Shown here one piece after another: positions 1-53,950 of a stretch of 64,000 bases of DNA (positions within the stretch are counted from its first letter, which is position 1; every line of letters starts with the position of its first letter). Origin of the DNA: Clostridiaceae bacterium (lineage in GTDB: Bacteria > Bacillota > Clostridia > DSM-8532); assembly GCA_012719645.1 (NCBI GenBank), contig JAAXZX010000004.1, positions 1 to 64,000 on the forward strand, written 5' to 3'. The notes under the pieces were generated by a model. It ran no database searches, was not told where the DNA came from, and worked only from the letters and a program-made list of their open reading frames with translations. The translations under genes were made by a program, and so were the position numbers.

Positions 1-81
1 CATATCTCATTTCTCACATCTAATGAGATTGCTTCGTCGCTTCGCTCCTCGCATAAAGGCTCGCAAGGGCTTACGAGGAGA

Positions 82-281
82 CGTGCTGTTCAGCCTCGAC
101 TGACTCCGCAGGAGCAGATGAAGTTGTATGCGAAATGCGCGGATCGAGCGGGAAAAAACAACCGGATGTTGTTTTTAGCCGGCAGTCGCACGGATGCGAC
201 GTTGCCGGCGGCCCTGCGAGATTAAGCATGAGCATGTACAACTTCCTGCGACGAGGACTGAAGGAGAGCCTGAACAGCACG
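82..281. mobile_element. MITE-like fold-back element, copy A
   Basis: Terminal inverted repeats CGTGCTGTTCAGCCTC (82-97) and GAGCCTGAACAGCACG (266-281) match at 15 of 16 positions. Inside are a second inverted pair (GAAGTTGTA near 121 with TACAACTTC near 238) and two local hairpins, so the 200-bp unit could fold into a branched cruciform. There is no coding capacity. A related copy with the same ends but a different core lies at 53392-53554. Calling it a non-autonomous mobile element is inference; no target-site duplication was established. Confidence 0.55.
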
Positions 282-375
282 GCTATGATACGAATAACCG
301 GGGAAGCGCAGCAGAGATTGCGCACTTCGCTTGCAATGACAACTCGAAAGACCTGCCAGGGTAATGCCGCGTACC

Positions 376-26740: not shown

Positions 26741-27012
26741 TTGCCGTGCTAGACGGGGAGGTAGCGGTGCCCTGTATCCGCAATCCGCTATAGCGGAGTT
26801 GAACTCCTGCCCCCGGCATGCAAATGTAAGGTCTGTTATGCGGTTGAGTACAATGAAGATCGGGTCTTGCGCAATTCGGAGCCGTGAACCCCGTCAGGTC
26901 CGGGAGGAAGCAGCGGTAAGCGGTAAGCCGGGTGTGCCGCAAGCCAGCCTGGTCCGAGTATGACGCCCATGGTACGCTTGTATTTGCACTGTCAAAGGCA
27001 GGTGCACGGTTT
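26741..27012 (+). ncRNA. ffs: Signal recognition particle RNA, large Bacillus-type
   Basis: The core domain IV motif is unmistakable: GTCAGGTCCGGGAGGAAG followed by CAGCGGTAAG. The ends pair (TGCCGTGC at 26742 with GCACGGT at 27004-27010). The length of about 270 bases and the 5' segment fit the Alu-domain-containing RNA of Bacillus and Clostridia rather than the short 4.5S form. It forms the SRP with Ffh for co-translational membrane targeting. A sigma-A promoter precedes it and a terminator follows at 27024-27046. dnaX downstream is a common neighbour in Firmicutes. Confidence 0.95.
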
Positions 27013-49207: not shown

Positions 49208-49220
49208 AATCATCAAGATC

Positions 49221-49837
49221 ATCAGGATGGCGCAGTATCCTAGTCAGTACTGCCTGGTTCGAAGACGGGCCTAAAAATCCGTTAAAGGGCATATCGATGA
49301 AGTTCCTTGTGCCGGCTTGTTACGCCCAGTGATGGGTCGGTGCTGGGAGTTAAGGTTTTGGGGCAGCCTGCAATGGCATGCAGGTGCGGACCCCTTTACC
49401 GCGGAGACCCTCATTCGTGGGAGACAGATTGCCTGCTTCGTGCAGTAAAAATCTTGACTACGATGGGGGATAGAACCTGTTTTGCGGTATCACTTTTGGT
49501 GCTGTGAGCAGTGTAGCCTGCCTTGAGTGCGGACCGGAGGATAGCGGATCAGGTGTTTATGTGCTGGCCGGCACATGAGCATTATCGCTGCTTGAAACCT
49601 TCCGTGCAAAAGAGGCTAGAACCAGGTAAGACTCCCGGGGAAAACCCCTAGGCTGTTGTTATCCAGGTATTCCGGGGATTGCAGTGTGTACTTAGTGGCA
49701 ATCAGGCTTTGAGAAGGGCAACCTCTCAACAGCGGGATTAAAGGGAAACCGCCGGAATGGCGACGTTCCGGTACCCTCTGGGGAAAACCTGCCTGACCTA
49801 AGACGCAAAATTTACTCGGAGTACTGCCATCCTGATT
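49221..49837 (+). ncRNA. ole: OLE RNA (ornate, large, extremophilic RNA)
   Basis: The 617-base unit matches OLE RNA in length and in gene context: the interval between ispA and oapA-dxs, in the order known from Bacillus halodurans. Its ends pair: ATCAGGATGG plus CAGTA at 49221-49237 with TACTGCCATCCTGAT at 49822-49836, giving 15 pairs with a two-base bulge. Internal hairpins include CCTGCA/TGCAGG (49367-49384) and CCGGAA/TTCCGG (49752-49771). The track's 66-codon ORF at 49307 has no support. OLE binds the membrane protein OapA and is linked to cold, alcohol and Mg2+ stress tolerance in the published organism. Covariance was not tested here. Confidence 0.85.
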
Positions 49838-49853
49838 TTTGTTGATTATTGCA

Positions 49854-53318: not shown

Positions 53319-53356
53319 GTCATTGCGAGCCCGGCGAAGCCGGGCGTGGCAATCTC
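53319..53356. repeat. GTCATTGCGAG-GCAATCTC palindromic repeat
   Basis: GTCATTGCGAG and GGCAATCTC flank an internal stem CCCGGC/GCCGGG. Inverted relatives occur at about 25-54 and 315-341. Confidence 0.75.
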
Positions 53357-53391
53357 TGCAGTGCTTTTCCCAAGTCATTACGTGTCACAGC

Positions 53392-53554
53392 CGTGCTGTT
53401 CAGTCTCTCCTTCAGTCCTCGTAAAAGAGAGGTAGGATGTGAGAGATTGGAGGGGTTAGATATATCCCAGTACAGTTCGTTACCATACATTCTAACTTCC
53501 AACCTCCAACTTCTCACATCCGGTATTCGGAGTCAGTCGAGGCTGAACAGCACG
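53392..53554. mobile_element. MITE-like fold-back element, copy B
   Basis: Ends CGTGCTGTTCAGTCTC (53392-53407) and GAGGCTGAACAGCACG (53539-53554) are inverted repeats matching those of copy A. Twenty-seven bases at 53528-53554 are identical in reverse complement to 82-108, and 34 bases at 53389-53422 match the reverse complement of 251-284 with one mismatch. The core is different, with a nested pair GGATGTGAGA...TCTCACATCC. Confidence 0.6.
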
Positions 53555-53950
53555 TTTTTGCTTAAGTCTTTGCGGATCTTTATGTGTCAATATTGGAGGA
53601 CTATGCCGAGATTGCCCCGCTCGGGTTCAGTCACTCCCCGCTAAAGCCGCAGACCCACTTGACCGCGGCCTGATAGGAGTGGTTGATGTTTCGCAGCCGT
53701 GCAACACAGCGACAGGGCTTTACGGGATCCCTGCAAGTACTTGGATTCCATATTTCCGCACAGTCTGCCGTTCCCTGTTGATGTCATTGCAAGAACAGCG
53801 CGGCTGCCAATGCAGTAACCAGCAAAACGCAATAGAGATTGACGCGCTTCGCCCGAAGGGTTCCATGCAACATTACCGAAATGTTAGCGGAACGGGGCGG
53901 AGCACGGCAATCTCTTCCTGTTCAGGGTTCACCGCATTAATAACAGGGTG

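Follow-up and report, generated by a model that had tools for sequence, protein, structure and literature searches.

The repeat at positions 82-281 of a 64,000-nt stretch of clostridial DNA (the window) carries a conserved RNA structure in its core, which we read, from covariance-model comparisons, as a diverged subfamily of TwoAYGGAY, an RNA family that has been without a function since 2010 (function unknown in Rfam, RF01731). The explanation that we favour, and consider probable, is that the repeat is a non-autonomous MITE-like element spread in trans, whose core is a predicted CsrA-binding (sponge-type) RNA. The source genome (G000) is a 2.6-Mb clostridial MAG in 142 contigs, and G003 is a sister species.

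The repeat family in the source genome

The first-pass annotation described two related fold-back copies in the window, and both were found where it had placed them (copy 1 and copy 2, Table 1). Positions 82-108 of copy 1 are the reverse complement of 53528-53554 (27 of 27 bases identical); a second stretch, 251-284, differs at one base out of 34 from the reverse complement of 53389-53422. The cores are different, as had been noted, and each contains nested inverted repeats of its own (149-162/168-181 in copy 1, 53435-53453/53503-53521 in copy 2). The 16-nt inverted repeats are indeed shared, but the end pattern proposed for them, with a variable C/T, is too narrow, the right arm of copy 1 (CGTGCTGTTCAGGCTC) indicating that G is possible too. 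Nor are these repeats the termini of the element, since ~35-45 nt beyond them are conserved on both sides. Outside the inverted repeat the copies have in common TGACACATAAAGGTCCGCAAAGACTTACGTGGAGA on one side and, on the other, CGGCTATAACACGTAATTAATTGAGAAACGCAGCAGAGATTGCCGCG running into the palindrome GAGATTGCC..CGCAATGAC; as this flank homology continues outward on both sides, the repeating unit is larger than the 16-nt-bounded element.

Table 1. Coordinates of the two copies in the window, their flanks and their cores
Feature	Position	Strand	Evidence or comparison
Conserved left flank outside inverted repeat, part of larger unit	51..81	+	flanks of copies compared
Copy 1, inner unit of A-type element, 200 nt	82..281	+	copies in G000, G003 and sister genus
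Left arm of copy 1 inner inverted repeat, CGTGCTGTTCAGCCTC	82..97	+	
Diverged TwoAYGGAY-type RNA (RF01731), model positions 1-168, full length	104..259	+	36.3 bits
Terminal hairpin 1, loop CGGAT (GGA) at 163-167	154..176	+	compensatory pairs
Terminal hairpin 2, loop CGGA at 191-194	178..209	+	GGA invariant in 18/18 copies; compensatory pairs
Right arm of copy 1 inner inverted repeat, CGTGCTGTTCAGGCTC on - strand	266..281	-	
Conserved right flank ending in AGATTGC..GCAATGAC REP-like palindrome	282..340	+	flanks of copies compared
Copy 2 right flank (element orientation) with REP-like palindrome	53321..53391	-	
Copy 2, B-type element: ends (27+31 nt) as in copy 1, other palindrome in place of the TwoAYGGAY core	53392..53554	-	
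Copy 2 inner inverted repeats	53392-53407/53539-53554		
Copy 2 palindromic core, arms 53435-53453 and 53503-53521	53435..53521		related sequences in B-type copies and at C25
Copy 2 left flank (element orientation), TGACACATAAAGATCCGCAAAGACTTAAGC..	53555..53590	-	

A self-search of the genome returned many scattered copies, as expected of the element family that had been proposed. The 200-nt A-type unit is present in seven copies in G000 (one truncated on the right), together with two 82-nt forms from which the middle is deleted and end-only matches at further places. At least five copies have the other core (B-type): besides copy 2 these lie at C63, C67 (right part missing), C11 and C108, and have related ends around a different palindromic core. 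With up to 2 mismatches allowed, G000 has 27 occurrences of the 16-mer end pattern and one of the reversed-pattern control. The A-type unit gave 13 blastn matches in G003, and ~75% identical homologues were found in several sister-genus genomes of the same family, some of them with up to a dozen or more copies. The G000 family is thus short, multi-copy and non-coding, with inverted repeats, as MITEs are. No copy turned up in a sequence search of plasmids, phages and viral contigs.

The outer borders of the G000 element merge with REP-like repeats, and their base-exact position cannot be fixed. The G000 copies, with their outer borders in these repeats, yielded no target duplications, and comparison with element-free sites in relatives gave no exact borders, the spacers being too diverged and repeat-rich. 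The REP-like palindrome GTCATTGCGAG..GCAATCTC (314-340 and 53321-53360 in the window, and many G000 and G003 loci) flanks most copies; it also adjoins other intergenic repeats in the same species.

The copies are intergenic, with neither a constant neighbour nor a constant orientation, which makes a cis-regulatory role for one gene unlikely. The gene downstream of copy 1 encodes topoisomerase IV/gyrase B. Copy 2 is bordered on one side by a gene of the FtsJ/S4-domain (TlyA-type) kind and on the other by a gene for an ABC-2 permease, which points towards it. Elsewhere in the window, the intergenic stretch 2441-2555 holds a GGAGGTTAGAGG-type sequence followed by CTTACTTCTCACATCC, which resembles the B-type core and has no element ends. 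The window also encodes a full-length OLE RNA at 49211-49846 (+) (RF01071, 520.5 bits), 3' of which are a gene whose match to the CNNM domain is weak and sub-threshold and a dxs gene, and a Bacterial large SRP RNA at 26744-27009 (+) (RF01854).

The flanks of the G000 copies were located in sister species for comparison of orthologous sites. At the site of copy 2, G003 has an A-type, TwoAYGGAY-bearing element within the same outer flanks; G001, G002 and G004 have no element there, and in the relatives the sites of other G000 copies are likewise without an intact element. One core was therefore swapped for the other in place, in either direction, and we take the B-type as derived because the RNA core is the one common to several genera. 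The copy 2 core was also considered as an Rfam RNA, and gave sub-threshold matches of the microRNA long-hairpin type only, which were taken as chance. The first-pass annotation had pictured a family that captures palindromic cores, and this interpretation is partly supported, being about half right: cores are exchangeable between shared ends and a swap is seen at one site, but the A-type core is an RNA and the most conserved part of the element.

A core conserved as RNA and related to TwoAYGGAY

An alignment of 18 core copies from seven genomes (G000, G023, G030, G025, G005, G022 and G026) gave a consensus fold of 59 pairs, of which 25 show changes on both sides. Paired cells amount to 96.5%, compared to 87% in shuffles and 31-48% in slid versions, the latter control being favourable to the fold, which was derived from the same alignment. 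None of 500 shuffles reached any of the five measures, and covariation is strong in both terminal hairpins. On the + strand the non-Watson-Crick cells comprise 41 G.U and 6 A.C (p 1.8e-7), a count biased upward by the choice of a fold with G.U allowed; the excess points to selection on RNA and not on DNA. A coding function was also considered for the core, as the open frame 135-2441 runs into the topoisomerase IV/gyrase B gene (Pfam), and was rejected on the single-base length variation between copies and the compensatory changes. Near the G026 copy, a few hundred bases away, is an FMN riboswitch (L067, 1223-1350, - strand).

The sole Rfam match in the element at permissive thresholds was RF01731 (E 1.9e-4 in a 261-base search), with a score (Table 1) below the family's gathering cut-off of 43; G023 and G022 copies searched singly with RF01731 gave no match. 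In the reverse direction, a covariance model (R1) built from the window family alone, without any RF01731 match, found the RF01731 loci L121 in G056 (42.6 bits, E 5e-10) and L118 in G051 (35.7 bits, E 4e-8), each at the same place as RF01731, and matched G085 weakly where RF01731 does. The window RNA has the features by which the family is recognized: a long stem and, side by side at its tip, two hairpins with A-Y-GGA-Y loops. The window core is like TwoAYGGAY in these features, in its AYGGAY-kind loops, its full-length alignment to the model and its occurrence in the class Clostridia; it differs in its sub-cut-off score and in a diverged first stem and loop size. We read it as a diverged subfamily. 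Rfam types TwoAYGGAY as 'Cis-reg', which is at odds with its dispersed placement here and with the table of the discovery paper, where it is scored as probably RNA and not cis-regulatory (PMC2864571).

TwoAYGGAY as a mobile repeat in other Clostridia

RF01731 was detected in 12 genomes of 99 relatives; among them, G068 (a complete genome) has 18 copies, G046 24, G051 10, and G056 and G086 8 each. Across the class, 34 of 393 sampled genomes are carriers; scoring in this sample was limited to 7 candidates per genome, and its copy numbers are not comparable with those of the 99-relative survey. RF01731 is multi-copy in several families of the class, and the outer inverted repeats are particular to each genome (for example, TGAAATGTGTGCAGA..TCTGCACACATTTCA in G046 and TGCATATTAGATATGTGCTGAAGATAT in G051): from genus to genus the outer ends change and the core stays.

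In G068 and G095 the elements end in CTKCRATTCGTAATATA and are bordered by direct repeats, such as ATTTGCCAT, ATCATATAA, ATGGAATGG and GTACATAAAA. Target duplications of 8-11 bp stand beside the terminal repeats in 9 of 12 G068/G095 copies, compared to 3 of 132 mismatched flank pairings (p 8e-10), and these direct repeats are a signature of DNA transposition. The target duplications that the first-pass annotation had proposed as a check exist in elements of the same kind, but were not found for the G000 copies; the G023 copies show no clear ones. In G095, contigs are broken at a long repeat (L167, L169 and L239, on C57, C93 and C13) that has the G068/G095 terminal repeat and is possibly the autonomous partner. 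A transposase sharing the element ends was recovered neither in G095, where the matching ends lie at contig ends, nor in G068, where they lie beside a non-transposase gene.

Other cores, of ~100-600 bp, also occur between the G068 terminal repeats (L181-L184 in G068, L185 in G095), and several cores have a second palindromic repeat, GGCTTGACATATAT..ATATATGTCAAGCC, inserted in them. At L116 (G068:C1:1143023-1146201) the TwoAYGGAY core is inverted relative to the ends, unlike in the other G068 copies.

Association with CsrA and competing explanations

CsrA recognizes GGA in hairpin loops, often paired (PMC7652899, PMC4383904), with the SELEX consensus RUACARGGAUGU, and its dimer is able to bridge two sites (PMC7652899). 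TwoAYGGAY has already been proposed as a CsrA-binding RNA from motif matches (PMC4333381). Two hairpins with GGA loops appear in 39 of 47 minimum-energy core folds and in 7 of 940 shuffles, a count that is biased in its RF01731 part, since the RF01731 model itself holds those loops. GGA in at least two hairpin loops is also what is sought in a CsrA-binding sRNA. G000 has two matches to PF02599 (CsrA). Of the 34 RF01731 carriers in the 393-genome class sample, 32 have PF02599, compared to 103 of the 359 non-carriers (p 2.8e-14). The subfamily of the window itself is placed among the non-carriers in this count, which works against the association. All 24 carrier genera have CsrA in at least one genome, compared to 57 of 195 other genera (p 3.6e-12), and among the 99 relatives, for genomes of at least 2 Mb, the counts are 17 of 20 carriers and 20 of 58 others (p 1.7e-4). 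The carriers G021 and G190 and the divergent-copy carriers G025 and G030, which are incomplete MAGs, gave no CsrA match. The co-occurrence, part of which may come from motility, lifestyle or phylogeny, suggests that RF01731 is a CsrA-binding RNA.

In the mechanism that we propose, the core (104-259, +) would be transcribed and fold into a long interrupted stem topped by the two adjacent GGA-loop hairpins, most likely to be bound by CsrA, with a single dimer across both loops. The dispersed copies would then act as a multi-copy CsrA-binding (sponge-type) RNA. A transposase acting in trans on the outer inverted-repeat unit would spread the copies, and recombination between copies, or nested insertion, would delete or swap the core, giving rise to copy 2. 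We infer transcription, CsrA binding, such a transposase and, for G000 itself, recent mobility.

The multiple intergenic copies without fixed neighbour or orientation, the target duplications in G068/G095 and outer ends that vary from genome to genome would be expected of a purely selfish MITE, in which the RNA serves the element through post-transcriptional silencing, insertion tolerance or aid to transposition and has no CsrA function. Such an element predicts neither paired GGA loops nor a strict co-occurrence with CsrA, and we consider it unlikely, though to be taken seriously. The long inverted repeats, and in G000 the REP-like palindromes along the outer edges, could instead reflect selection on DNA, with a transposase or recombinase acting on an extruded single strand or cruciform, in the manner of REP/RAYT or IS200/IS605; the one-strand asymmetry between G.U and A.C points to RNA, however, and 8-11 bp target duplications (G068) are not expected from Y1 transposases, so that this appears improbable.

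It is very doubtful that the copies are transcription terminators or stabilizers of mRNA 3' ends, rendering intergenic insertions harmless or useful: the insertions are intergenic and 9 of 12 G023 copies come after a same-strand gene, but all genomes together show no such orientation bias, and the conserved terminal loops would be left unexplained. The model of the first-pass annotation, a MITE family capturing arbitrary palindromic cores of which none is special, fits the ends shared by A-type and B-type copies and the several other cores within the G068 terminal repeats. It is largely refuted by the covariation and now hardly credible, given that the A core is conserved across genera with compensatory changes, matches an Rfam family and is less variable than the ends.

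Compared to known systems, the element resembles MITEs in being short, non-coding, multi-copy and intergenic, with inverted-repeat ends and, in G068/G095, 8-11 bp target duplications; it differs in a core that is under RNA-structure selection and conserved across genomes despite different outer ends. G000 copies share with REPINs and REP sequences the flanking REP-like GTCATTGCGAG..CAATCTC palindromes, but the element is far longer and has a structured RNA core, and the G068 ends are ordinary terminal repeats with target duplications. Like CsrB/CsrC and RsmX/Y/Z, a class described from Gammaproteobacteria only (PMC4333381), the RNA is non-coding and has GGA in hairpin loops at more than one site; unlike them, it has two sites only, is located on dispersed mobile repeats, and its CsrA binding is predicted. 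The parts are of known kinds and, the supplement of the 2010 paper aside, their combination appears to be new; with the same reservation, we found no description in the literature of TwoAYGGAY as part of transposable elements.

This analysis adds that TwoAYGGAY is dispersed by transposon-like elements whose ends are genome-specific while the RNA is conserved, and that it is nearly confined to genomes encoding CsrA. The older, motif-based guess at CsrA (PMC4333381) becomes a directly testable hypothesis. We suggest, more tentatively than for the window element itself, that TwoAYGGAY could be a mobile CsrA sponge, its ends replaced from one lineage of Clostridia to another, which would multiply CsrA sites and rewire or exploit the CsrA regulation of the host. 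If this is true, it would be a CsrA-binding RNA outside Gammaproteobacteria that spreads by transposition.
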